A stretch of 27,282 bases of DNA from a virus: positions 1 through 27,282 of the IMG/VR virus record IMGVR_UViG_3300026097_000082. One strand, written 5' to 3'. The notes beneath the pieces are model-generated. The model searched no databases and was not told where the DNA came from. It worked only from the letters and a program-made list of their open reading frames with translations. Below are positions 1 through 13,388 of the stretch, in pieces. The number at the start of each line of letters is the position of its first letter. Position 1 is the stretch's first letter. The position numbers were made by a program, and so were the translations under genes.

Positions 1-221
1 AGCTTCAAAGCGCATCTCCGTATTTCTTATCGGCATCCAACAGCGGTGGTTCATCAACCACCTATGTCACTGACGAGCATTACGCCAAGCCGGATTCCAA
101 CCGCGTGGTTCTTGTCGGCGGTAACGCATTTAATGGCGCGGCTGCGGGCGCGTTCTGCTTGGGTTCGGCTTATGCCTCTTCGCTTCGGTTTCGTTATTTC
201 GGCGCGCGGCTCGCCTTTTAA
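1..221 (+). CDS. DGR variable protein, C-terminal end (5' partial)
   Basis: The frame is open from base 3 and stops with TAA at 219-221, giving 72 residues of a protein that begins outside the window. The last 38 codons hold the variable repeat. They are rich in Gly/Ala/Ser/Phe/Tyr and end in a Gly-Ala-Arg-Leu-Ala-Phe tail, like the C-type-lectin-fold ends of known DGR target proteins such as Bordetella phage Mtd. In phages these targets are usually tail-tip or fibre receptor-binding proteins, and the nearby tail-fibre-like gene and lysis genes fit that. The role is inferred from the VR/TR relationship, because the N-terminal domain that would identify the structural class is missing. Codons that are AAY in the template read here as Phe, Ala, Gly, Ala, Tyr, Leu, Phe and Tyr, which is what adenine mutagenesis would give. 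Confidence 0.85.
   Translation, partial: LQSASPYFLSASNSGGSSTTYVTDEHYAKPDSNRVVLVGGNAFNGAAAGAFCLGSAYASSLRFRYFGARLAF
102..214 (+). repeat. DGR variable repeat (VR)
   Basis: This 113-bp segment at the 3' end of the variable protein gene aligns without gaps to 264-376. There are 27 mismatches. 26 lie where the template copy has A (changed to G, T or C) and one is a silent T-to-A at an Ala codon. The two copies diverge at once on both sides, so the boundaries are sharp. The VR ends five codons... more exactly seven bases, including the TAA, before base 222. A-specific substitution is the hallmark of retroelement mutagenic homing. Confidence 0.95.
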
Positions 222-235
222 TTTAAGGAGTACCA

Positions 236-404
236 AGGGGTGATTGACCATTTTGTCGTTCCACACGTGGTTCATGTCAGCAGTAACGCTAATAATGGCA
301 CGAATGCAGGCACGTTCTACTTGAATTCGAATAATGCCTCATCGAATCGGAATCGTAATATCGGCACGCAGCTCGCTGGTCGTAGTGCGCGGCCAATCAC
401 CCCT
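236..404 (+). ncRNA. Putative DGR template RNA core closed by a basal stem
   Basis: Bases 236-246 are perfectly complementary to 394-404 (11 bp). After one A-C mismatch, 248-249 pair with 391-392. The two arms stop 14 nt before the template repeat starts and 14 nt after it ends, so the TR sits centrally in a loop of about 140 nt. The stem is directly visible. That it folds in the template RNA and helps present or delimit the template is inference. The true transcript ends are unknown and the RNA probably continues into the spacer before the reverse transcriptase gene. Confidence 0.6.
264..376 (+). repeat. DGR template repeat (TR)
   Basis: This is the invariant template copy of the VR, 162 bp downstream of it. 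It has 32 adenines in 113 bp, and 26 of them differ in the VR. In the VR reading frame it contains nine AAT codons and one AAC codon. AAY codons are typical of templates because randomising the two adenines reaches many amino acids with no stop codon. It would be transcribed as the RNA copied error-prone by the downstream reverse transcriptase. The same frame is open from a GTG at 240 to a TGA at 477-479. Confidence 0.95.
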
Positions 405-475
405 GCTCGAAAGGGCGAATATGTCTACCCAATACAGGCTAGTAGCGGTTGCGAGCGTCTGGGGGAACATCAGCG

Positions 476-1489
476 ATGAAACGTAAAGGCAACCTTTTCG
501 AGAAGATCGTCAGCCTAGACAACATCCGTCTGGCTCATAAACAGGCGCGCAAGGGCAAGGCTTTCTATACCGAAGTCAAAATGGTCGATGCCGATGTTGA
601 CCACTACTGCGGTGAGATTCAGAAGATGCTTACCAACCAGACTTTCAATACCAGCGCCTACACGCTTGAAGATCGCTATGACGGGCGCAAGATGCGCACC
701 ATCTACAAACTGCCGTACTACCCTGACCGTATCGTGCAGCATGCGCTTCTCAATGTGGCAGGGCCAGTGCTGACCAACGCACTTATCCGTGACACCTACC
801 AGTCGATCACGGGGCGCGGCACAAGCGATGCCATGAGGCGTGTCAAGCGTCTGGTGCGCAGCGAGAATTGCCCCAAATACGCGCTGAAGATTGATGTGGC
901 CAAGTACTACCCCTCAGTCGATAACCGCCTTCTCAAAGCCGCTGTACGACGCAAGATCAAATGTGAGAAAACACTGTGGCTGCTCGACAATATCATCGAC
1001 AGTATGCCGGGCCTGCCCATTGGCAACTACACGTCTCAAATACTGGGCAATGTGTACCTGAACGAATTTGATTGGAAGGTCAAGCAAGAAATCAAGCCTA
1101 CTGGTTACTTCCGTTACTGCGACGATATCGTCTTCATGGCCGACGCGCCTGGCGATCTGATGGCCATGAAGACTTGGGCTGAAAAAGAACTGTCCAAACT
1201 CAAGCTGTCTATCAAGCCTTCATGGAACATCTACAACGTGGCCGCGCAAGGTATCGACTTCGTGGGCTACGTCTTTAAGCCTGAGCGCACTCGGTTGCGT
1301 AGGGGAATAAAGCAAAGTTTTGTAAACGCTTGTCGTTCATTGAAAGAAATGCCAAAAACGACACGCAACCTAAGCCGCGTCATGGCCTACAAAGGGTGGG
1401 TCAAGTCATGTAATGGCAAAACCCTGTGGCGCAAACACACTCACCAAATCCGTCCGATTTACCCCACTCAAATCAGAGGTGCATTATGA
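476..1489 (+). CDS. DGR reverse transcriptase
   Basis: A 337-aa reverse transcriptase that should copy the TR RNA into mutagenised cDNA for homing into the VR. Visible motifs are the first catalytic aspartate region (Lys-Ile-Asp-Val-Ala-Lys-Tyr-Tyr, about residues 138-145), the motif LPIGNYTSQ (about 180-188), in which Ser-Gln replaces the Gln-Gly common in other RTs as in DGR enzymes, and the active site YCDD (214-217). Length matches known DGR RTs. ATG at 476 is preferred over an in-frame TTG at 449 because GGGGGA precedes it at a good distance. This ATG overlaps the TGA that ends the open frame running through the template. No avd-like accessory gene lies between VR and RT or just downstream. 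The 3' end overlaps the next gene (ATGA). Confidence 0.95.
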   Translation: MKRKGNLFEKIVSLDNIRLAHKQARKGKAFYTEVKMVDADVDHYCGEIQKMLTNQTFNTSAYTLEDRYDGRKMRTIYKLPYYPDRIVQHALLNVAGPVLTNALIRDTYQSITGRGTSDAMRRVKRLVRSENCPKYALKIDVAKYYPSVDNRLLKAAVRRKIKCEKTLWLLDNIIDSMPGLPIGNYTSQILGNVYLNEFDWKVKQEIKPTGYFRYCDDIVFMADAPGDLMAMKTWAEKELSKLKLSIKPSWNIYNVAAQGIDFVGYVFKPERTRLRRGIKQSFVNACRSLKEMPKTTRNLSRVMAYKGWVKSCNGKTLWRKHTHQIRPIYPTQIRGAL

Positions 1490-1824
1490 AAACCTACTCA
1501 CAGACCCAACCCGATACTTATGTCATCTCTGGCAACGAGGTGCGTATCCACTGGGACGTTCAAGAACAGACCACGCAGGACATGGATGGCCAAGACCAGA
1601 CGCAATGGGTGGCTAACGAGGCCGTGGCTTTTGTCCACGACACCCGTGAAATCCTAATTGAAAAGATCATCGGCTCGGTCTACTCGGTTCAGCAAGAGAT
1701 TGCCACGATTAACAACCGAGATGAAAAGCCTGATACCTACGATGATTACCAGAGCTTGCGCGCAACCGCCAAGCAATTGGCTGATAACTGGCTGTCTCAA
1801 AAAGCCGCTTTGCTGGAGGGCTAA
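1486..1824 (+). CDS. Hypothetical protein (112 aa) downstream of DGR RT
   Basis: ATG at 1486 overlaps the reverse transcriptase stop (ATGA) and has an AGAGGT ribosome site, so it is probably translationally coupled to the RT. The protein is acidic, Gln/Asp/Thr-rich in its first 45 residues, then has a predicted helical half with a Tyr-Asp-Asp-Tyr-Gln-x-Leu-Arg-x-x-Ala stretch and a Trp near the end. It has no signal peptide or membrane segment. The helical second half and its place between the RT and a fibre-like gene recall small tail-fibre assembly proteins, but I do not recognise a family. It is too acidic to be an obvious Avd, which is a small basic helical-bundle protein. Confidence 0.75.
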   Translation: MKTYSQTQPDTYVISGNEVRIHWDVQEQTTQDMDGQDQTQWVANEAVAFVHDTREILIEKIIGSVYSVQQEIATINNRDEKPDTYDDYQSLRATAKQLADNWLSQKAALLEG

Positions 1825-1826
1825 TC

Positions 1827-2606
1827 ATGGCTGACGTAACCATCGACGACCTGCCATCAGGCGCAGCACTGCAAGACTCTGACTCTCTGGTGGTCGAGCA
1901 GGGCAGTAGCGGCTCACGGCGCACAGTCAAGCTGACCGCTGACGCTATCAAGTCCTATGTGCCGAACATCAACCAGAAATACATCTGGGACAGGCTTGGC
2001 TATGTGCCTGCCAATCTGGATGGTTCAAACGCCACGGGGCTGTGGAACATCAACATCAATGGCTTTGCCACGAAGTTGTTCAAAAACGCAACGTATGAGG
2101 TCAGTGGGCTGACAACTGATTCACTGACTGTCACTGACATGGTGGTCAAGGGCGAGGTGGATTTAACGCAAGCCACTGCGCTGCGCTTCCCAGAGGACAC
2201 CATCGCAGTCAAGGACACCATCCGCGCTGAGAACAAAGTCATCTGTGAAGGTCAAATCGAGACCGACACGTTCAAGGCCGATGGCGCTGCCGATGCCTAC
2301 CGCTTTGTGGCAGGCACGTACTGTGAAGGCACTCGCTGGCGCGCGCGTCCGACCAATCAGCCCGCGCAGTCTGCCTATCCTGAGATTTACTACGACGTGG
2401 ACTTAAACGTGTGGCGTGGCTACGTCAAAACGGCTACAGGCGGCTACTGGCAAGACCTGTCACTGCGACGCATTAAGGATGACCCAAACAACGAAGTCAA
2501 CGAGCCTTACAACGGCATGCAGGTCATGAACCAGTACGACCGTTTGTGGCGCTACCTCGGCGACGAGTGGAAAATTGTGGACTATCCGGGGAAGACGTTT
2601 GTTTGA
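1827..2606 (+). CDS. Tail-fibre-like structural protein
   Basis: A 259-aa protein starting two bases after the previous stop, with a ribosome site (GGAGG) inside the end of that gene. The middle carries the Gly-Ser-Asn-Ala-Thr-Gly-Leu-Trp-Asn-Ile-Asn-Ile stretch (about residues 65-80), a pattern common in tail-fibre and spike repeats. The rest is Thr/Val/Asp-rich and looks beta-structured, with Trp/Tyr-rich segments toward the C-terminus. It probably forms part of the host-contact apparatus with the DGR-diversified protein. The family call rests on composition and one motif. A base-plate or tail-needle accessory role is equally possible. Confidence 0.6.
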   Translation: MADVTIDDLPSGAALQDSDSLVVEQGSSGSRRTVKLTADAIKSYVPNINQKYIWDRLGYVPANLDGSNATGLWNININGFATKLFKNATYEVSGLTTDSLTVTDMVVKGEVDLTQATALRFPEDTIAVKDTIRAENKVICEGQIETDTFKADGAADAYRFVAGTYCEGTRWRARPTNQPAQSAYPEIYYDVDLNVWRGYVKTATGGYWQDLSLRRIKDDPNNEVNEPYNGMQVMNQYDRLWRYLGDEWKIVDYPGKTFV

Positions 2607-5029: not shown

Positions 5030-5451
5030 GATTGCTCTACGCGCTCGCATTCGCTCCATGTGTGGCAATGGCAGACTTGGGACAACTGAGCCTGCCTGCG
5101 CCCCCGTCATGGCCAACAGGTAACGACAAGGTTCGCAGTGCCGATGGTGTGCAGTGCGAGACAAGCACGACCCCACGCGACTGGTACATGGACATTGGGA
5201 TTGTAGGTGGCCGAGGCAATGGCCTTGGGTCAAACTCCAACCCGACAATCATTGATGTCAACAGCACGTTCGTGAACAACAATTTTGAGCGCAACACGAT
5301 GGCTATCTATGCGCGGGTGGTCATCAACCTCGACAAACCCAAACCGCACATTGATTGTGGTCGTCTGTATCAACTAGAAATTGATCGCCTCAAGATGGAA
5401 ATTGAGTACCTGCAAATGGGTCAGGGCGTGGCAGGTGGGGTAGTGGAGTAA
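5026..5451 (+). CDS. Secreted protein of unknown function (141 aa)
   Basis: Starts on an ATGA overlap with the chaperone-like gene. It has a signal peptide (Ala-Met-Ala cleavage site near residue 16), a Gly/Asn-rich middle (Gly-Gly-Arg-Gly-Asn-Gly), two cysteines that could pair, and a C-terminal helix with heptad-like Leu/Ile spacing (about residues 115-132). No family is recognised. Being the third exported product in a coupled operon, it may partner with the pilin-like and chaperone-like proteins. Its stop codon lies directly against the first structured RNA element. Confidence 0.7.
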   Translation: MRLLYALAFAPCVAMADLGQLSLPAPPSWPTGNDKVRSADGVQCETSTTPRDWYMDIGIVGGRGNGLGSNSNPTIIDVNSTFVNNNFERNTMAIYARVVINLDKPKPHIDCGRLYQLEIDRLKMEIEYLQMGQGVAGGVVE

Positions 5452-5543
5452 GCGGGGTTGGATGAAGCACCATTCAGCCCGAAGTAGCGGGGCGGGATTG
5501 CCCGTAACTTCACAGGCGGCTAAGACCTGCTCCCCGCTTTTTT
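5452..5543 (+). ncRNA. Structured RNA element, copy A, ending in a terminator
   Basis: The outer stem GCGGGG/CCCCGC (5452-5457 with 5532-5537) is followed by six T residues, so it doubles as an intrinsic terminator for the secreted operon. Inside are GGATGAAGCACC (5460-5471), a middle hairpin (GAAGT 5481-5485 with ACTTC 5507-5511, plus inner CGGG/CCCG) and a hairpin CAGG/CCTG (5513-5516 with 5526-5529) whose 9-nt loop is CGGCTAAGA. The same plan, with the same 5' element and an identical 9-nt loop, recurs at 5582-5675. AGC of the 5' element could pair with GCT of the loop. I do not recognise the class. Confidence 0.7.
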
Positions 5544-5581
5544 CCATTGTAAATAAAATCATCGACACGACTTAATAAGTC

Positions 5582-5675
5582 GCGGGCCGGGATATAGCAC
5601 CCTTTCGTTTAACGAACGGTCGTGACCTCGTTCGCAACTTTATCCTCGGCGGCTAAGACCGAGCGCCCGCTTTTT
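5582..5675 (+). ncRNA. Structured RNA element, copy B, ending in a terminator
   Basis: The outer stem GCGGGC/GCCCGC (5582-5587 with 5665-5670) is followed by TTTTT. It contains GGATATAGCACC (5590-5601), a middle hairpin (CGAACG 5613-5618 with CGTTCG 5629-5634) and a hairpin CTCGG/CCGAG (5645-5649 with 5659-5663) with loop CGGCTAAGA, identical to copy A. Compared with A, the sixth outer pair is C-G instead of G-C and two pairs of the last hairpin are changed on both sides. Structure is therefore kept while sequence drifts. A small inverted repeat (5568-5573 with 5577-5582) sits just upstream. Confidence 0.7.
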
Positions 5676-5831
5676 ATTCCAGTTCTCCAGGTGTGGCGTA
5701 AATTTGCCATAAATGCTTTTCGCTCCCCCTGTATAGATGTCAAAACGCATAAACAGATTTCGATGATGCTGTCAGTGCGAAACCTAGTGTTTATGCGGCT
5801 TTCCAGCTATTTGTACCCACTTTTAACGTGC
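5676..5831. other. Non-coding attP flank with a 10-bp inverted repeat
   Basis: No convincing gene lies between the second RNA element and the tRNA fragment. An inverted repeat CGCATAAACA (5746-5755) / TGTTTATGCG (5788-5797) is present, with a related CATAAA at 5709-5714. Their place beside the attachment core makes them candidate integrase arm-type or excisionase binding sites. That is inference from position only. Confidence 0.4.
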
Positions 5832-5878
5832 GACTGTTAATCCGTAGGTCACTGGTTCGAGCCCAGTTTGGGGAGCCA
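5832..5878 (+). other. attP core: 3' half of a tRNA-Asn(GTT) gene
   Basis: These 47 bases match the anticodon loop (CTGTTAA, anticodon GTT at 5836-5838), the 3' anticodon stem strand, variable loop, T-arm (GGTTCGAGCCC) and acceptor end with CCA of a bacterial tRNA-Asn. The 5' half is absent: bases before 5832 do not form the D-arm or the 5' acceptor strand, so it is not a working tRNA. Tyrosine integrases commonly insert at tRNA 3' ends, with the phage carrying this segment to restore the gene. The integrase gene ends 17 bases away. The expected attB is a host tRNA-Asn gene. Confidence 0.88.
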
Positions 5879-5894: not shown

Positions 5895-6962
5895 TCAACC
5901 GTTTACCACACGAAGTGCAGGACGGTTGGGTAAGTTCGGTTCAGGGTGTGGCGTGATTTTGACGTTGCCAGTGTAGCGCGCCAAGTCATCGGCACTCAGG
6001 TGGGCGTAGCGATTCAACATCGACAACGTTTTCCACCCGCCCAAGCGCTGCAACGTCAGCATCGGGGTACCTGCCTGGGCGTGCCACGAAGCCCATGAGT
6101 GCCTGAGATCGTGAAACCTAAAGCCCTCTGGCAACCCCGCGGCCTGTACCGCTTTGGCAAACGGCCGTCTGTCGATTTCTCTGGTCTGCCTGCCCGCCCG
6201 CGCAAAGACATACTGACTATGTAAATCTTTACGCCGCATGACCACAGTCAAAGCCTCATCGTTTAACGGCACAGCTCTACCAGACTTTGACTTTGCCTTG
6301 GAACCCAAGACCGACACCAAACCTCTGTCCACGTTTACTTGCGCCCACTCCAGGCTCAGGATTTCTCCTGCCCTCATGCCTGTTGCCAACGCAAACGTGC
6401 AGACATCACGCATCCAACCTTCTGGCAGTGCTTCTAAAAAGATGACTGCCTGTTCCTTGGTCATGAAGTCCTCACGCAATGGGGACTCGGCAAACTTTTG
6501 GATGTAGGGTGTCTTGGCCAACCATCCCCGCTTGTGGGCGTCGTTAAGCAGCTTGCTTAACGTGGCCAGGTAGCGGTTCTTGGTGGCACCGGACAATGGT
6601 TGCGATTTGCCATAGCGATTGCGTTTGTGCGTGGGCAACGCGTTATGTATCACTTCCGTTGTTAAAGAACAAATCGTATTGCCGCTAAACTGCTCGCACC
6701 AAAACTTTACGTGCTGCACTTTCGAGCCGTAGTCACGTGTGTGAGCGTGTTGCTTTAAGAACTCCAACGCCGCCTCGTCAAACGTGTACTGCCGCTGCTC
6801 GCCTAAGTGCCTAGTGCGCCACAACTGGGCTTTCACCCGGTCGTGGTACTCCTGAGCCTCTACTTTGTCGAACGTCCCAGTAGAGCGTCTAACTCTTTTT
6901 GAACCATCAACTGCGATGTCGATGTAGTAGAAGCCTGATTTTGGGTGCTTGTAGATTGACAT
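5895..6962 (-). CDS. int: Tyrosine-family phage integrase
   Basis: A 355-aa site-specific recombinase for insertion at attP. The N-terminal arm-type/AP2-like segment (about residues 1-50) and core-binding domain (about 58-155) precede the catalytic domain. Catalytic residues seen are Arg197 (Thr-Gly-Met-Arg-Ala-Gly-Glu), His284-x-x-Arg287-His288, Trp310 (Gly-Gly-Trp) and nucleophile Tyr319. The start ATG has a good GGAGAC site, though it lies inside the upstream gene (103-base overlap). It is the last gene of the leftward operon and adjoins the attachment site. All catalytic residues are intact, so it should be active. Confidence 0.95.
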   Translation of the reverse strand: MSIYKHPKSGFYYIDIAVDGSKRVRRSTGTFDKVEAQEYHDRVKAQLWRTRHLGEQRQYTFDEAALEFLKQHAHTRDYGSKVQHVKFWCEQFSGNTICSLTTEVIHNALPTHKRNRYGKSQPLSGATKNRYLATLSKLLNDAHKRGWLAKTPYIQKFAESPLREDFMTKEQAVIFLEALPEGWMRDVCTFALATGMRAGEILSLEWAQVNVDRGLVSVLGSKAKSKSGRAVPLNDEALTVVMRRKDLHSQYVFARAGRQTREIDRRPFAKAVQAAGLPEGFRFHDLRHSWASWHAQAGTPMLTLQRLGGWKTLSMLNRYAHLSADDLARYTGNVKITPHPEPNLPNRPALRVVNG

Positions 6963-7168
6963 GTTTCGTCTCCGTCTCGCACCGACAGCGAGACAACTTT
7001 ACTATGAGTGGCAGATTTTTGAAACTCTTTCAGTGTCGAGGGCCATACGCGCCAGATGCGAGAACCAGGTAGCCGAAAGGCTAAGTCTTTGCGCTTGGCA
7101 AAGATGGTCTGGTAATGCACCCCTAGCATGTCAGCAGCCTGTTGCAAGGTCAGTGCTTTTTCATCCAT
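6860..7168 (-). CDS. Helix-turn-helix protein, excisionase candidate
   Basis: A 102-aa protein starting with GGAG before ATG. Residues about 5-50 form a winged-helix/MerR-like DNA-binding unit (Leu-Thr-Leu-Gln-Gln-Ala-Ala-Asp-Met-Leu-Gly-Val-His then Ile-Trp-Arg-Val), the pattern of excisionase-family DNA-binding domains. The second half is Ser/Thr/Gln-rich and probably disordered. Its position directly before, and overlapping, the integrase gene suggests a recombination directionality factor. A simple regulator cannot be excluded. Confidence 0.7.
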   Translation of the reverse strand: MDEKALTLQQAADMLGVHYQTIFAKRKDLAFRLPGSRIWRVWPSTLKEFQKSATHSKVVSLSVRDGDETCQSTSTQNQASTTSTSQLMVQKELDALLGRSTK

Positions 7169-7448
7169 GTTGATTCTCCAATCTTGCGATCTCTCGGTTG
7201 ATGTACCAAACTGCTTTTTCTAAATCTTGAATGGGGTTGTTCGACTTCAACCCAGCTCGCCAGACGTATTTCGTAGCGTTTCCTAAACAGAAATTCATGT
7301 GTTCGGTGATCTGTATGCACTCCACACCAGACGGATGTTGGGTGTAGTGCGGTGGGCGGTTAACCATGTCATCGTTCGGTACTTCATTTTCGGACAGGTA
7401 TAGTCGAAGTTCATTTTCCAAAAAATAATTACTGGTTGTATCGTTCAT
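7161..7448 (-). CDS. DUF3310 family protein
   Basis: A 95-aa protein with the DUF3310 signature: Val-Asn-Arg-Pro-Pro-His-Tyr, His-Pro-Ser-Gly-Val-Glu-Cys-Ile, then Gly-Asn-Ala-Thr-Lys-Tyr-Val-Trp-Arg-Ala-Gly and a final helix Asp-Leu-Glu-Lys-Ala-x-Trp-Tyr. The family is widespread in phages next to replication genes and is related to T7 gp1.7-type nucleotide-metabolism proteins, but the reaction is not certain here. The leader (AAGGAGAACCAA before ATG) is identical to that of the next upstream gene, suggesting similar translation rates. Confidence 0.88.
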   Translation of the reverse strand: MNDTTSNYFLENELRLYLSENEVPNDDMVNRPPHYTQHPSGVECIQITEHMNFCLGNATKYVWRAGLKSNNPIQDLEKAVWYINREIARLENQHG

Positions 7449-7459
7449 TTGGTTCTCCT

Positions 7460-7846
7460 TTAATCTTTAGGTACAAACCAACTTATTTCAGTTTGGCCTT
7501 TATGCTGCCCTATAGCTAAATACAGCATGGGCTGCCCGTCTAAACCGGCTTGGCAAATCTCGCACCAAAAACCTATCAACACCCCGTTGCGTCTTTCGCT
7601 TGGATTGTCAGTTTGTACGTCACCGCCTGAATGCAGGTTTACGGCTTCCCCGTTGACGCTCAAAATCAATCCTCTTTCCCAATCTTCTTTTGGCCGATTA
7701 AAAACATATACAGACTCATGGTGCAAACACCCTTCATGACCTCCGTAGGGAGCACAAACGGGGCAAGTTAAAAGGCCTTTCAAACCGTAGCCTGCCCGTT
7801 CAATATGCGTTTGCACTTCTTCGTAATCAAGGTTAAATAGTTTCAT
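7460..7846 (-). CDS. Hypothetical protein with two Cys pairs (128 aa)
   Basis: No family is recognised. The protein has Cys-Pro-Val-Cys near residue 28 with nearby His residues, and Cys-Glu-Ile-Cys near residue 95. Such paired CxxC motifs often bind zinc. It has no signal peptide or membrane segment. It shares the AAGGAGAACCAA leader with the DUF3310 gene and overlaps the helicase stop by four bases, so it is co-translated in the replication operon. Confidence 0.75.
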   Translation of the reverse strand: MKLFNLDYEEVQTHIERAGYGLKGLLTCPVCAPYGGHEGCLHHESVYVFNRPKEDWERGLILSVNGEAVNLHSGGDVQTDNPSERRNGVLIGFWCEICQAGLDGQPMLYLAIGQHKGQTEISWFVPKD

Positions 7847-9222
7847 TTGGTTCTCCTTTTCATCGCTTCTAGTAAGACGTCCTGAACCGCCCGCTTGGTG
7901 CGCAACCGATTCATGACCAATTCATCAATAGAGTCCGGCACCACTAAGTGGTGCACAAACACCGGGCGGTCGTATCCCGATTGCTTTTGCCGTGCTGGGC
8001 CGATGCGCTCGATAATCTGCAAGTAGTTCTCTAGGCTCCAGTCCATGCTGAAAAACACCAAGATGTTGCCGCCGTGCTGCAACGACAACCCGTGGCCGGC
8101 ACTCTGGGGGTGCGCGAGCATCACCGGGATTTCTCCGGCGTTCCAGCGCTCAATGGTCTGCGGGTTTTGGTCCATGGCGACTGCTTGGGGGAAAGCCTTG
8201 AGAAGTCGAGCCAAGTCGGACTTGAACTTGTACGCAACCAGTACCGGCGAGCCGCTGGCCTCTTCAATAATTGAATCCAGTGCATGAATCTTCTCATCGT
8301 GTATGACCTCCCAGTCGGTGTTGCCGCCGTCCAAATACACGGCGCCACTGCAAATTTGTAAGCATTTCATAGACTTAGCCGCTGCGTTTGCCGCTTCCAC
8401 GCCTTCGTCCTTTAGCTCGGCAAAGAAATAATCTTCCATGTCCTGATACGTCTTGCGTGCGGATTGCGGCAACGGCACTGACAGAACATTGACCACGGGC
8501 TCATCAATGTTCAGGTGATCCTTGGCGTCGATGGTCAGGCAAATGTCAGACAGCTTTTCCTGAATCTCGGTTCTGGCATGAGGCAGCGCAATCAGTTTCT
8601 TGGCGTGAGCGTTTGGGCCGACTTGCTCGGATCGAAACCAACGTTTCTCAAATCCGTTAAAGGATTGCCCCAAACGCCAACCGCGATCCAAAAACCAAAT
8701 CTGCCCCCACAAATCCGTTAAACCTTGCGGACTTGGGGTGCCAGTCAGCAACACCATGCGATCGACCTTGGTGTGCGCCACCTTAGCCAAAAACCGAGCA
8801 CGCTTTGACCCGCCGTTTAATCGGTAAGACTTCAGCCTGGTCGATTCGTCAATCACCACCGTCCTAAACGGCCACGCATCACCCAGCTCTTTGACCAACT
8901 GAGGTAGCAGCTCGAAATTGATGGTATTGATGTCGGCCAAGTTGACAAACGCCTTGGCACGCTGCGCCACCGTGCCGCCAATAAACTTGCAACTTAGGTG
9001 TTGGGTAATAGGCCACTTGGCCACCTCACTGGGCCACGTGTGCTTGGCCACTCGCAAGGGGGCGACTACTAGCACTGGCAACACGTCTTCCATTAAGTCA
9101 AGCGTGCTGATGGCGTGCAACGTGGCCAAGCTTTTGCCCATGCCCATGGACGCCCAAATTGCGCACCGTGGGGTGTCCATGATGTGCCTAGCAATGTCGT
9201 GCTGGTAGCTATGCAGTTTCAT
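7843..9222 (-). CDS. SNF2/DEAD-like phage helicase (superfamily 2)
   Basis: A 459-aa ATPase with the order of superfamily 2 motifs: Q-like Ser-Tyr-Gln at the N-terminus, Walker A ASMGMGKS (about 24-31), motif Ia Val-Val-Ala-Pro-Leu, motif II Asp-Glu-Ser-Thr (125-128), motif III Leu-Thr-Gly-Thr-Pro (159-163), and in the C-terminal half Ala-His-Pro-x-Ser-Ala-Gly-His-Gly and Gln-Ile-Ile-Glu-Arg-Ile-Gly-x-Ala-Arg-Gln (motifs V and VI). Phage proteins of this type sit in replication modules with a VRR-NUC nuclease and DNA polymerase, as here. They probably remodel DNA or unwind branched forms. It overlaps the nuclease gene by 14 bases. Confidence 0.9.
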   Translation of the reverse strand: MKLHSYQHDIARHIMDTPRCAIWASMGMGKSLATLHAISTLDLMEDVLPVLVVAPLRVAKHTWPSEVAKWPITQHLSCKFIGGTVAQRAKAFVNLADINTINFELLPQLVKELGDAWPFRTVVIDESTRLKSYRLNGGSKRARFLAKVAHTKVDRMVLLTGTPSPQGLTDLWGQIWFLDRGWRLGQSFNGFEKRWFRSEQVGPNAHAKKLIALPHARTEIQEKLSDICLTIDAKDHLNIDEPVVNVLSVPLPQSARKTYQDMEDYFFAELKDEGVEAANAAAKSMKCLQICSGAVYLDGGNTDWEVIHDEKIHALDSIIEEASGSPVLVAYKFKSDLARLLKAFPQAVAMDQNPQTIERWNAGEIPVMLAHPQSAGHGLSLQHGGNILVFFSMDWSLENYLQIIERIGPARQKQSGYDRPVFVHHLVVPDSIDELVMNRLRTKRAVQDVLLEAMKRRTK

Positions 9223-9484
9223 TTAAAAATTCATCCACTTGTTCTTTGCTATCGATAACTAAAACCCTGACACCTAGACTGCGTAACTTCTGATGCAATC
9301 GTGCTTGGTGCGGTTTTGCTTTTTGGTTTGGCGCTTTCAGTTCCACAAACACCATCACGCCTTGGGGCAGAATCACTAGCCGGTCGGGTGCGCCTCTGAT
9401 GCTGACCCAATCCTGCTTGACTGCCATGCCGCCTCTGGCTTGAACCTGGCGACGCAAGTACGCCTCAATGGTGCGTTCGCGCAA
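9209..9484 (-). CDS. VRR-NUC domain nuclease
   Basis: A 91-aa protein that is essentially one VRR-NUC domain of the PD-(D/E)XK nuclease superfamily. Visible features are Gly-Ala-Pro-Asp-Arg (D about 34), Val-Phe-Val-Glu-Leu-Lys (E and K as catalytic pair, about 47-51), then Gln-x-x-Leu-His-Gln-Lys-Leu and a final Val-Leu-Val-Ile-Asp strand. It likely cuts structured or branched DNA. TTG at 9484 is the start: the sequence AAGGAG, formed from the last codons of the polymerase gene, lies at the right distance and no suitable ATG exists near the N-terminus. Confidence 0.9.
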   Translation of the reverse strand: MRERTIEAYLRRQVQARGGMAVKQDWVSIRGAPDRLVILPQGVMVFVELKAPNQKAKPHQARLHQKLRSLGVRVLVIDSKEQVDEFLNETA

Positions 9485-9487
9485 GCT

Positions 9488-11548
9488 CTACTCCTTCCGA
9501 TAACGTGTTGTTTCGTAACCGGCTGCCGCTAACGGCAAACCTTTGGCCCAGTCTGGTGGCGTAGCCATGATCGCTGACAGCTCTTCGTGAGTGAAACGGT
9601 CGTTGTCAGGTACTTCACAAATCAATTCATCGTGAACAGACGAAACGATGGCGTAACCGCCAAACTCTGCCATGGCTAGGCCATTTGTAAGCACGTCTCT
9701 GGCCACGGCTTGGCACAGGTTTTCGAAAATCTTGCCGCCATACGTGCTGATGCGCCCCCACTTACGGGTGTACTGATTCAGTCCTGCGTAACTGACTTTG
9801 CCTTCATCATCGACTCGGGGCTGTGGGTAACACAGCAACCGACCCGATGGCATCTTGATACGCAACCAACCGCGCACAGCGTTAAACACCAACTTGCCCG
9901 CTTTAAATTTTTCATTGGGGTGTTGAATGGCTAAAACGGCCGACTCTTCCAACTCTTTCCACAGCCGCGTAATGTTTGGATGCGCTTTGCGCCAAGCACG
10001 TTTAACGCCGTCACACGCCACGAACGTGTCGCGCTCAAGTCCAAAGGTGTTGCTGCCTTCTTCCTTGCAATAGTTCCAATACCGCTGCGCTTGTTCCAGT
10101 AACTCATCTGGCAAGGTCGGTAGCACCTTGTCGGCCATGTCGTTTAAATCAATACGGTAGATAGCTGCAAAACTTTTAAACGCACCTACCGCACCCTGGT
10201 ACCCTAATGCCAGTTCTTGAACCTTGCCCACGGATCTCTCATCTGGCCCCACCGTATCGACACTCACGCCAAACGACTTGGCATAGGCCATCTTGTACAG
10301 GTCAGGCCCCGTGCCGGCGTCAAACTCTCGAAACGCCTGCACCTTCCAGTCTTCGCCAGCCAACCACGCAGCGACCCGTCCTTCAATGTTGCTCAGGTCA
10401 CTGACCACTAGCTTCTTGCCTTCGGGGGCGATTAGGCACCCACGCACCGCTGAACTGGTTAACGCCGACACGTTGTCAAACATCAAATCCGCGCAACCGA
10501 GCTTGAGCGCCGCAATACCATGTTCAAGCTCAGTGCCTTTGACGCTGCCTCGCGGCAAGTTTTGCAACTGAACTAAGCGGCCTGCGAACCTTCCGGTTCG
10601 GCTAGCACCGCAGTACTGCAACGTGCCACGTAGCCGGCCGTCTTCGTTGGTACAGTGCTGAAACTTGGGGTACTTGGCATTGCTTGACATGCTGGCTTCG
10701 AGTCGGATGCGCAACAGCTCTTTAACCGGCTCTGGCAAGTCAGGGTCTTCGAGCCTGCGTTCCAACGTGCTGGTACGCAAATCAGGCAGGCTCACGCCGT
10801 ACTCTTTCAGTATGTGTGCCAGTAACGCATCGCGCTGACTAGCCGAGTTGACGTCGCCCCCAGTCTTGTCTTGTGTTTCTTTAGACAAACGAGCCTTTTC
10901 TTTTTTGACCGCATCAATAGCCGCTTGAACCAAGTCAAGGTCAACGGCCACGCCTCGGTCATTGATGCGCTGGTCTAAGTGCCACAGCGCAAGCTCGGCG
11001 TCTTTGTAGTTCCACTTGGGCAACTTGCCGTGCAATACGCGCATGGCCTGCACGTCTTGGCGAGCGTAGTGAACAAACTGCGCCCACTCGTCTGGATGCG
11101 TCTCTTTGTTGGCTCGACGCAATTTTCGATTAGCAGGCTGCGGCTTGCAAAAAAGCTGAATGAGTTTCTGCCCATCAGCATCTTTGGCTTCGTCTGCGTC
11201 TAGTCCGTACACTTGGCACAGCACACCAAGCGCACCGGGCAGGGAATGTGCCAAAGCCTGTGCCATGGTGCAACGCCAACGTTCAATTTCGGTTTCCATT
11301 TGCCACGCATGGCGCAGCACCACTCGGTCAAACTGAGCGTTATGTGCAACCAGGGTCACGTTGGGGTCAAGTAGCGCTTTGGTAAGCTCATCGTTTGCCG
11401 TCTCGACCACGTGCACTGGCCCATCGTCAAGGGCGTAAGCCGCAAGCAAAATCTCAGACTCTGGCGCATACCGATACACGCCAGACTGTTTAAGATTGAC
11501 CTCGCTATAAACCTCTAAATCAAAATATAGAATTTTGGGATTTGACAT
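9488..11548 (-). CDS. Family A DNA polymerase with 3'-5' exonuclease
   Basis: A 686-aa replicative phage polymerase. The N-terminal DnaQ-like exonuclease has Phe-Asp-Leu-Glu (D10, E12), Ala-His-Asn-x-x-Phe-Asp (D74) and Tyr-x-x-x-Asp (D165), so proofreading residues are present. The polymerase domain has motif A Asp-Leu-Ser-Asn-Ile-Glu-Gly-Arg (about 384-391), motif B with Lys...Leu-Gly-Tyr-Gln-Gly (about 442-452) and motif C Val-His-Asp-Glu (638-641). Motif A carries Gly where many relatives have Leu or Ala. It stops four bases before the nuclease start. Its leader contains a small upstream reading frame. Confidence 0.95.
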   Translation of the reverse strand: MSNPKILYFDLEVYSEVNLKQSGVYRYAPESEILLAAYALDDGPVHVVETANDELTKALLDPNVTLVAHNAQFDRVVLRHAWQMETEIERWRCTMAQALAHSLPGALGVLCQVYGLDADEAKDADGQKLIQLFCKPQPANRKLRRANKETHPDEWAQFVHYARQDVQAMRVLHGKLPKWNYKDAELALWHLDQRINDRGVAVDLDLVQAAIDAVKKEKARLSKETQDKTGGDVNSASQRDALLAHILKEYGVSLPDLRTSTLERRLEDPDLPEPVKELLRIRLEASMSSNAKYPKFQHCTNEDGRLRGTLQYCGASRTGRFAGRLVQLQNLPRGSVKGTELEHGIAALKLGCADLMFDNVSALTSSAVRGCLIAPEGKKLVVSDLSNIEGRVAAWLAGEDWKVQAFREFDAGTGPDLYKMAYAKSFGVSVDTVGPDERSVGKVQELALGYQGAVGAFKSFAAIYRIDLNDMADKVLPTLPDELLEQAQRYWNYCKEEGSNTFGLERDTFVACDGVKRAWRKAHPNITRLWKELEESAVLAIQHPNEKFKAGKLVFNAVRGWLRIKMPSGRLLCYPQPRVDDEGKVSYAGLNQYTRKWGRISTYGGKIFENLCQAVARDVLTNGLAMAEFGGYAIVSSVHDELICEVPDNDRFTHEELSAIMATPPDWAKGLPLAAAGYETTRYRKE

Positions 11549-11598
11549 GGTATGATTTCCATCAGGAATGACATGATTCCTATGCGTTTACAGACTTA

Positions 11599-11630
11599 CC
11601 CCGGTGTGGCAGCACCGGGGTTTTCTTTTT
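11599..11630 (+). terminator. Rightward intrinsic terminator inside the leftward operon
   Basis: An 8-bp stem CCCCGGTG/CACCGGGG (11599-11606 with 11613-11620, 6-nt loop) is followed by TTTTCTTTTT. The T run follows the hairpin only on the plus strand. In the leftward mRNA the same stem lies between the DUF2815 gene and the polymerase gene without a T run, so leftward transcription should pass. It may block antisense transcription or act as an mRNA processing or stability element. Confidence 0.7.
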
Positions 11631-12189
11631 AGAGCAGGTCATCTTCGGTCTCTTCGACCGCTTCAATGGCCTCAAACTCGTCGCCGTTAGACTTCACGGG
11701 GCCTCCTCCAAACGCATCGCCGTCACCGGCAAACTGCACCGCAATCAACGTGCAACGAATGCCGCTGTACTGGCCGTCTTGCGCCCAAATGTCTACGGAC
11801 GCGTTAACAAAACACCCTGCGTAAACGCGACCGTTGTCTGCATGAATTGGGGTCTTGTCTGCGTCAAATACTGCGACTGGACCGTCTTTGTCTTTACGGT
11901 TGCCAGACAAAATGAACATGCCCTCATTCTCTTCACGCCCAGTCAGTTCACCGTCCACGTAGCAGCAGGTCTGCTTACTTGAGCGCAGTTTTTTAAGCGT
12001 GGTGGCAGCCTTGCCGCCCCACTTGGCTTTGGCAACTTCAGCGATCGCATCTTCCAATGCTTTATGCGCATCGGTGCCGGGGTCAACCATGAACTGCGCC
12101 TCGTAGCGCAAGGGGCCGGTGCCTTTGAACTGAGAAGGTTCAAAGAGTTTGGGGAAAGACAAACGAACGTTCTTAATCACTACTTTCAT
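11629..12189 (-). CDS. DUF2815 family single-stranded DNA-binding protein
   Basis: A 186-aa protein starting Met-Lys-Val-Val-Ile-Lys-Asn-Val-Arg-Leu-Ser-Phe-Pro-Lys-Leu-Phe, typical of DUF2815, a phage ssDNA-binding family with an OB-like fold. The C-terminus is strongly acidic (Glu-Ala-Val-Glu-Glu-Thr-Glu-Asp-Asp-Leu-Leu), as in SSB proteins, where the acidic tail recruits partners. It lies between the polymerase and the DUF2800 nuclease-like protein, the usual neighbourhood. AAGGAAA precedes the start. A tiny ATG-TCA-TGA frame overlaps the start codon. Confidence 0.87.
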   Translation of the reverse strand: MKVVIKNVRLSFPKLFEPSQFKGTGPLRYEAQFMVDPGTDAHKALEDAIAEVAKAKWGGKAATTLKKLRSSKQTCCYVDGELTGREENEGMFILSGNRKDKDGPVAVFDADKTPIHADNGRVYAGCFVNASVDIWAQDGQYSGIRCTLIAVQFAGDGDAFGGGPVKSNGDEFEAIEAVEETEDDLL

Positions 12190-12203
12190 GACATGTTTCC
12201 TTT

Positions 12204-13388
12204 TTAAAGATGTGCAGCAAAATCGGCTGCGGGGTCAGTCACCAAGGCGTTCCTTGGATCAGATTCGGGGGCGACGGTTGGCGCACCGGGTGCCTGCGAC
12301 ATCATGTCGGCAAGCTTTCGCCACTGGGTGGGGCCAAGCTTTTTGGCCTTGTAAAGTTTCTCCACGTCGGTGGGTGAAACCAGACTGGTCTTGAACATGG
12401 CATCACGTTTTAGACGCATCTGACGCATCAACTCTTCGACTTCAGCGGCATCGACCCACTTGCGTGCGCCTTTGCGACCTTCAACCACTTTGAAGCCTGG
12501 CACCTGCTGACCAGACAACAGTCGCTTGCGTGATTCTTCTTCGACCGCGCCAATCCACGTCTTAATCATGCCAATGGCAGACAGCTTCTTAGCCAACTCA
12601 AAGTTGTCCATCATCTTGGGTTCGCTCTCGCCAGTGAGGTCTTCAAAATCTAAGTCACATGCTTCAAACACAGACGCCGACAGTGCGTCGCACGATGGCG
12701 CATTAGCGCACCACTTGCACTGCACTTCGCCCGGCTCCTTTCTAACCAAGCCGTGCTCGATCTTGTCGATCATGATCGACAGACGCACACCGAACGCTTC
12801 CAAGTCAAAACGGCTTGCACGCCATTCGCTTACGTGGTTTAACCGAGGCTGGATGATGACCAGATCCACGTGATCGACGGGACCTGTCGCTGCTTCGTAG
12901 GCGTGAATGGCAGCCAAGGCGTAGGCCATCAGTTGATCGTTATCTTGCGCATCAACTTTGACGCCCATGCCATACTTCAAATCCACAATCGTGATAGCGC
13001 GGTCTTTCAAAATCACCGCATCGGCTGTGCCTTCTGAATCTTCACCAGTCACACCGGACAGGGGCAACTTTTGTTCAACCATGAGCCTGTGGCCTGCGGC
13101 CATCGATAGCACAGGGTCAACGTATCCCGTTTGAATGTGGCGAGCCATATCGAGCGTGACTTCAATCAGTTCATCGTCTACGTCATAGACGGTGCCGATC
13201 AAGTCGTAAGCTTCAATGCCGCGCTCCAAGCAATCTTGCGCTAACTGATGGGCAGCCGTGCCTTCGTTCGCGTAACTGCTTGAGCCTTCGGAAGGTCGGT
13301 ACCCGTTGCAAAGCCTGATCGCTTTAAGACTAGAAGGGGGGTATTTCTTGGCGTGCGTGCTCGCTTGAATGGGTATGACTTTAGCCAT
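12204..13388 (-). CDS. DUF2800 family protein, Cas4/RecB-like nuclease
   Basis: A 394-aa protein of the phage DUF2800 family, distantly PD-(D/E)XK. The core has Glu-Gly-Thr-Ala-Asp-Ala-Val-Ile followed by Ile-Val-Asp-Leu-Lys-Tyr-Gly (the D...DxK metal site, about residues 119-140) and Asp-Asn-Asp-Gln-Leu-Met-Ala-Tyr-Ala (QxxxY motif). Near residues 223-232 is a cluster Cys-x-x-Cys-Ala-Asn-Ala-Pro-x-Cys, recalling the Fe-S cysteines of Cas4/AddB nucleases. A role in recombination or DNA-end processing is likely. The C-terminal third is helical and charged. It overlaps the upstream gene by 8 bases. Confidence 0.85.
   Translation of the reverse strand: MAKVIPIQASTHAKKYPPSSLKAIRLCNGYRPSEGSSSYANEGTAAHQLAQDCLERGIEAYDLIGTVYDVDDELIEVTLDMARHIQTGYVDPVLSMAAGHRLMVEQKLPLSGVTGEDSEGTADAVILKDRAITIVDLKYGMGVKVDAQDNDQLMAYALAAIHAYEAATGPVDHVDLVIIQPRLNHVSEWRASRFDLEAFGVRLSIMIDKIEHGLVRKEPGEVQCKWCANAPSCDALSASVFEACDLDFEDLTGESEPKMMDNFELAKKLSAIGMIKTWIGAVEEESRKRLLSGQQVPGFKVVEGRKGARKWVDAAEVEELMRQMRLKRDAMFKTSLVSPTDVEKLYKAKKLGPTQWRKLADMMSQAPGAPTVAPESDPRNALVTDPAADFAAHL

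Follow-up and report, generated by a model that had tools for sequence, protein, structure and literature searches.

M2, a compact two-hairpin RNA family between the genes of uncultivated phages

Introduction

The stretch of viral DNA analysed here (IMG/VR record IMGVR_UViG_3300026097_000082, 27,282 nucleotides, hereafter the window) carries two neighboring elements of similar layout. An earlier note on this DNA proposed that they are structured RNAs of one family, more than a pair of terminators, and of no known class. The locus raises the question of whether such a family exists, which strand it is read from, and what it could do for a phage. To our knowledge, few phage-specific RNA classes are known, and the best known of them, GOLLD and ROOL, are without an assigned function. 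The RNA family of the two window elements is named M2 here.

Two Elements in the Window

Both elements are present in the sequence and share one plan (Table 1). Each has an outer stem, a GGATnnAGCACC segment, and a CGGCTAAGA loop, and the compensatory pairs and T-runs of the earlier note were likewise seen. A GC-rich hairpin followed by a T-run can be recognized by eye on the plus strand of both copies, and the stem and T-run of copy 1 could double as a rightward terminator on that strand. This arrangement is not a family-wide feature. The RNA folding energy on the strand first read is only mildly unusual, with z values of -2.0 and -0.8 for the two elements, so the case for M2 rests on comparison.

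Table 1. Positions of M2 features and of the adjoining operon in the window. Copy 1 is the 3' copy and copy 2 the 5' copy on the transcribed minus strand.
Feature	Position	Strand	Basis or content
M2 RNA domain, copy 1	5450..5539	(-)	R3 match 5448-5540, 39.5 bits, E 5.8e-10; R2 53.2 bits (R2 training member)
Copy 1 P1 5' arm AAGCGGGG	5532..5539	(-)	Sequence; 8 Watson-Crick pairs with 5450-5457
Copy 1 P2 hairpin GCAGGU-CUUAGCC-GCCUGU	5512..5530	(-)	Sequence; loop 5518-5524
Copy 1 P3 hairpin UGG-UGCUUCAU-CCA	5459..5472	(-)	Sequence; loop 5462-5469
Copy 1 P1 3' arm CCCCGCTT	5450..5457	(-)	Sequence
T-run past copy 1 stem	5538..5543	(+)	Sequence
M2 RNA domain, copy 2	5582..5670	(-)	R3 match 5578-5673, 31.0 bits, E 2.9e-7; R2 47.5 bits (R2 training member)
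Copy 2 P1 5' arm GCGGGC	5665..5670	(-)	Sequence; 6 Watson-Crick pairs with 5582-5587
Copy 2 P2 hairpin CUCGGU-CUUAGCC-GCCGAG	5645..5663	(-)	Sequence; 7-nt loop 5651-5657 with UUAGC core
Copy 2 P3 hairpin GGG-UGCUAUAU-CCC	5589..5602	(-)	Sequence; loop 5592-5599
Copy 2 P1 3' arm GCCCGC	5582..5587	(-)	Sequence
T-run past copy 2 stem	5671..5675	(+)	Sequence
Leftward operon running towards the M2 copies	5895..13388	(-)	DUF2800-like, Enc34-type ssDNA-binding protein, polA, VRR-NUC-like, SNF2 helicase, DUF3310-like, excisionase-like HTH, integrase (Pfam for integrase, SNF2, DNA_pol_A, and Enc34_ssDNA-bd; other names inferred from ORFs)

Homologues of the Window Elements

An exact pattern, in which GGATNNAGCACC and CGGCTAAGA are separated by 30 to 60 nucleotides, matched eight further IMG/VR contigs. 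In all eight, the unrelated outer stems still pair and the last hairpin carries compensatory changes. The family was widened by relaxed pattern scans and by searching for the second hairpin on its own. A structural filter left 78 placements in 75 loci, about five of them coding-sequence noise, and clustering of the filtered placements gave 41 non-redundant groups. With the loop words permuted, the structural filter gave a mean of 0.7 placements against the 78, for loci that had themselves been picked by those loop words. Extra members (L068, L070, L120, L133, L145, L163, and L176) score 37 to 50 bits with a model that was blind to them. M2 amounts to about 45 to 50 distinct groups, all of them uncultivated phage contigs. 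The member records are about 10 to 99 kb long as a whole and carry one copy, rarely two.

The covariance model R3 rests on 32 sequences, with the window excluded as a hold-out. In the 27-kb window it matches only the two sites of Table 1, both on the minus strand, and the elements go far beyond chance.

Strand and Fold

M2 is transcribed, by two lines of evidence, from the strand opposite to the one first read. Nearly all genes that flank M2 in the first loci lie opposite to that strand, and the homologous replication, structural, and integrase genes that tblastn found near M2 are all on the M2 strand. When G-U and A-C wobbles are scored alike, P1 on the reverse strand has 24 G-U against 7 A-C. 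With P1 and the outer P2 pairs taken together, the minus strand has 34 G-U against 8 A-C (one-sided binomial p = 3e-5). The G-U excess and the orientation of homologous genes place the RNA on the window minus strand, and the plus strand was rejected on the same counts. The strand given in the earlier note was thus wrong.

From 5' to 3' on the transcribed strand, M2 consists of a P1 arm, the P2 hairpin, a variable middle, the P3 hairpin, and the second P1 arm. The closing stem P1 is present in all members and is 6 to 22 base pairs long (median 12), with no conserved sequence. P2 has mostly 5 to 8 base pairs and a 7-nucleotide loop, N-UUAGC-N. The P2 loop sorts the members into class 1, to which the window belongs (CUUAGCC closed by U-G), class 2 (GUUAGCG closed by G-C), and rarer forms (UUUAGCU, AUUAGCC, and others). 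The middle segment is about 23 to 50 nucleotides long, or 57 to 86 in longer subclasses, one of which has a GGCAGGCACUUGCACUC-like sequence. P3 has 3 to 4 base pairs that close the loop UGCUUUAU, with variants UGCUUCAU, UGCUAUAU, and UGCUGUAU, and is flanked by conserved A-A and A-G (A·A/A·G). Both window copies have the three features that define M2, namely P1, P2 with an N-UUAGC-N loop, and P3 with a UGCUnnAU loop. Because the search patterns fix part of the loops, each single set exaggerates how conserved the loops are. The two conserved segments of the earlier note are both present, and they are in fact two hairpin loops, GUCUUAGCCGC on the 5' side and GGUGCUnnAUCC on the 3' side of the minus strand.

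Pair covariation across the family is overwhelming. It is 0.576 in alignment A2 against 0.205 when shuffled, and 0.621 in alignment A3 against 0.202, with 0 of 500 shuffles reaching the observed value in either case. Displacing the partners by one column lowers the A3 value to 0.15-0.28. All 126 cells of P3 are Watson-Crick (42 sequences from 41 non-redundant groups), with swaps of CG/GC, GC/CG/AU, and CG/UA/GC. The inner three pairs of P2 are about 99% paired across the family and include double changes.

The triplets AGC in loop A and GCU in loop B are invariant and mutually complementary. Sets picked on loop A alone retain GCU in loop B, and sets picked on loop B alone retain AGC in loop A even though the preceding UU varies, as expected for kissing loops. 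The P2 and P3 loops therefore probably kiss, AGC with GCU. The pairs of this contact never vary and so lie outside the reach of covariation; we infer them from the retained triplets. An AGC/GCT pseudoknot had been suggested before; the contact remains plausible, and it is recast here as one between two hairpin loops. Kissing of the two loops would lock M2 into a compact fold with parallel helices.

Homologues that keep the loop and the 5' segment, their covariation, and the hold-out matches together bear out the proposal of a family that is more than two terminators. As far as comparison of sequences can establish it, the M2 family is solid.

Comparison with Known RNAs and Distribution

Rfam 15 (4227 covariance models) gave no match in the window up to an E value of 5. 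Against 20 member loci it gave none that was convincing, and no shared family matched at M2. The view that the elements belong to no known class agrees with this comparison. Judged on these alignments, M2 is a real and previously undescribed RNA family; the RNA class appears categorically new, and its function may prove familiar in kind.

GOLLD and ROOL are ornate RNAs of phages and prophages, of unknown function, often near tRNAs and with kissing loops (PMC12286853). They differ from M2 in length (600-800 nucleotides, against 60-140 for M2) and form Rfam families of their own, while M2 often stands alone and sometimes in arrays. Their family models matched neither the window nor the member loci. 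The int-alpA RNA (RF02996) resembles M2 in being an intergenic phage RNA whose outer stem encloses two hairpins, but its conserved sequence differs and the window has no match to it. Sub-threshold int-alpA matches lie about 2 kb upstream of M2 in L004 (1336-1402, 33.1 bits) and L006 (3344-3410, 32.5 bits), where the cutoff is 35.8 bits.

Purine-riboswitch-like three-way junctions consist of a P1 and two hairpins with kissing loops. M2 shares this layout, as far as its predicted kissing contact goes, but has no visible conserved junction or ligand pocket and no constant downstream gene. A tRNA likewise has a closing stem, two arms, and loops of 7-8 nucleotides able to touch, whereas M2 lacks a T-loop sequence, the anticodon-arm constraint, and any ARAGORN or Rfam tRNA match. 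No tRNA was found in the window, and the Rfam tRNA model misses M2.

The class 1 exact pattern, searched in 85k species, gave chance matches only, most of them coding-like. In bacterial genomes, models R1 (399 genomes) and R2 (369 genomes) returned only noise of 24-26 bits, and the class 2 pattern occurred in 0 of 399. A prophage or bacterial distribution of M2 was rejected on these scans. Among isolated phages, no M2 was found by blastn, nor with R2 in eight related reference records, and no member was found on plasmids. The human gut record MT835534 was rejected as a member, its P2 hairpin alone matching at 21 bits.

Genomic Setting

M2 is intercistronic. It lies between co-directional genes, often in a DNA-replication operon, and it shares the strand of the upstream gene in every case where this gene can be clearly recognized. 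In homologous polA-SNF2-Gam-like-SSB-primase operons it occupies at least five different gaps: after polA (L140), before SNF2 (L156, L180, and L167), between SNF2 and the Gam-like gene (L147, L183, and L001), between the Gam-like gene and SSB (L005), and between SSB and primase (L103). A regulator of a single gene is unlikely because M2 wanders among the gaps of homologous operons. In other phages it comes after a small Cro-like gene (L061 and L110) or lies among head genes (L004 and L006), with gene names inferred from ORFs.

The window copies are located at the 3' end of the replication-integrase operon, by a probable attP, and are convergent with rightward lysis genes. In this position their expression would need read-through or an unseen promoter. 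A role as an attachment-site element, which the earlier note had raised, is not borne out, since an integrase is close to only a few M2 members, and the window copies lie at the operon end, beside the probable attP.

Two other features of the window are recorded here. Between the integrase and the M2 copies, a stretch at about 5826-5878 resembles the 3' half of tRNA-Asn and is the probable attP core. ARAGORN makes no call there because the tRNA-like stretch is incomplete. A phage reverse transcriptase is encoded at 449-1489 (+) (Pfam RVT_1). It shares about 40% identity with many reverse transcriptases of phages and is likely of the diversity-generating type. Template and variable repeats were not identified, there being no direct repeat of at least 40 nucleotides within window positions 1-2600. 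A retron or diversity-generating retroelement RNA was rejected for M2, as no homologue of this reverse transcriptase was found near other members.

Possible Functions

The reading we favor, with a probability of roughly 40%, is that M2 is an autonomous RNA domain of phage transcripts that would act at the RNA level, probably in trans or through a general host factor. Its place on the coding strand, its varying gaps in homologous operons, and its usual single occurrence per genome speak against a regulator of one fixed neighbor. M2 would be transcribed from the minus strand within phage messages and would form a stable noncoding domain that either stays in early or replication transcripts or is cut out of them. 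Through its conserved loops it would bind some general partner, for instance a protein or RNA of the host.

It is unlikely that M2 is instead a cis-regulator, a riboswitch or protein-binding leader whose fold or ligand alters access to the ribosome-binding site of the next gene. Many members do sit just 5' of a ribosome-binding site (L059, L060, L069, L140, and L183), which would suit a cis-regulator too, and in these loci and L124 the next gene starts within tens of nucleotides of P1. The downstream gene nevertheless varies even inside one homologous operon, where a riboswitch or leader of a fixed gene would have a constant downstream gene or pathway, and M2 faces a convergent next gene in the window, L062/L067/L087, and L142/L172. 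Some middles hold an anti-Shine-Dalgarno-like CUCCUU, with a mean longest match of 4.17 against 3.49 in shuffles, but the match is confined to a minority and pyrimidine-rich control words are enriched too. The sequence, which resembles the 16S rRNA 3' end, occurs in L069, L082, L103, L129, L143, and L156. An anti-Shine-Dalgarno mimic was dropped as a candidate, being statistically weak and limited to a minority of members.

A further alternative, also rather doubtful, is an operon-wide signal for transcription or processing, either a read-through RNA or a site of RNase cleavage. A signal of this kind can sit in any gap of an operon on the transcribed strand and still work. The model for it is the put RNA of phage HK022, a nascent RNA of two stem-loops that promotes read-through over at least 10 kb (PMC9378689). 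Like M2 it is a phage RNA, about 70 nucleotides long, with two stem-loops and independent of the adjacent gene (PMC9378689), an action that for M2 is proposed. Terminator-like hairpins occur up to 300 nucleotides past M2 in L003, L006, L159, and L187. In the two bins that span 100-300 nucleotides, 79 bins contain 4 terminators, where the background is 0.013 per 100 nucleotides. Most members, however, have no terminator nearby. Suppression of termination by put goes through the zinc-binding domain of the RNA polymerase beta-prime subunit. The put RNAs lie downstream of early promoters and have no closing stem, whereas M2 has P1, occupies many gaps, and often lies midway along an operon or at its end, in the window after the integrase.

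Phages are known to carry ribozymes, and the size, docking loops, and free placement of M2 in messages would suit a small self-cleaving ribozyme that cuts polycistronic phage transcripts. We consider this improbable. No Rfam ribozyme family (hammerhead, HDV-like, twister, pistol, or hatchet) matches the window or the 20 member loci, and the conserved bases are only those of the two hairpin loops and the flanking purines, with no conserved strand for a cleavage site. Very improbable, and largely refuted, is the reading of M2 as a DNA site (an attachment region or a replication or recombination site) or a mere pair of intrinsic terminators: the probable attP nearby and the plus-strand T-runs after both stems fit it, but the asymmetry of G-U over A-C and the fixed orientation to genes show selection on one RNA strand, and terminators have no need of loops conserved in about 45 groups.

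Arrays and Neighboring RNA Modules

In some phages M2 is one of several structured RNA hairpin modules in a tandem row; on the reading as an autonomous domain, it would be built into larger arrays there. In L129, 22-nucleotide boundary repeats occur four times at a spacing of about 135 nucleotides, and in L131 a 72-nucleotide module is repeated about 300 nucleotides apart. A separate hairpin, C, is found upstream of M2 with the loop GAAAGA or GAGAGA (CCTCGGAAAGACGAGG and covarying forms). It occurs eight times within the 150 nucleotides 5' of M2 (6 kb in all) and not once in 329 kb lying more than 1 kb away. The two window copies share GCGGG/CCCGC stems, which look like a small-scale version of the boundary logic of the arrays.

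Beyond the domain itself, M2 is possibly, though doubtfully, one exchangeable unit of a modular RNA system of phages. Tandem arrays of autonomously folding hairpins, each bounded by phage-specific complementary repeats, would assemble into large structured RNAs during infection and act on a general host target. Being compact, with near-perfect covariation and conserved loops, spread over many phage groups, and mobile within replication operons, M2 offers a tractable handle on structured phage RNA that acts against or with host machinery. It also reveals that modular RNA arrays, overlooked by current annotation, are present between phage genes.

In several loci, a P1 arm is able to pair alternatively with an upstream arm, the two pairings being mutually exclusive. 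A switch was considered for this and set aside, since the pattern can equally be read as adjacent hairpins that share boundary sequence.

Several observations were made next to M2. Hairpin C has a stem of 5-6 base pairs and a loop of the GAAAGA, GAGAGA, or TGAAAGT type, and is present in L005, L059, L064, L082, L088, L103, L122, and L161. Arrays of differing hairpin modules with phage-specific complementary repeats between them lie in L129 (3750-4520, minus strand), L143 (about 6500-7100), L131 (1-620), and L004 (3245-4000). The motifs AGGGCTGTGACAAGGCCAGCCACGGGAT, AATGCGTAGGCTGATGCG...GATCAGCAC, AATCGGGAGAG, and AGCGAGTAGCC recur in these arrays, which probably hold further new RNA modules. 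Degenerate tRNA-like structures stand beside M2 in L004 (3559-3666, 24.8 bits) and L121 (13148-13221, 25.1 bits), both below the tRNA cutoff, and the one in L004 carries a large insert. On the 3' side of the arrays in L129 and L143, there is a possible separate small RNA, CGAACCCTTACTGAAGGAGCGGGC...CAGTAAGGGTTTTTT, with a promoter-like TATACT and a terminator.
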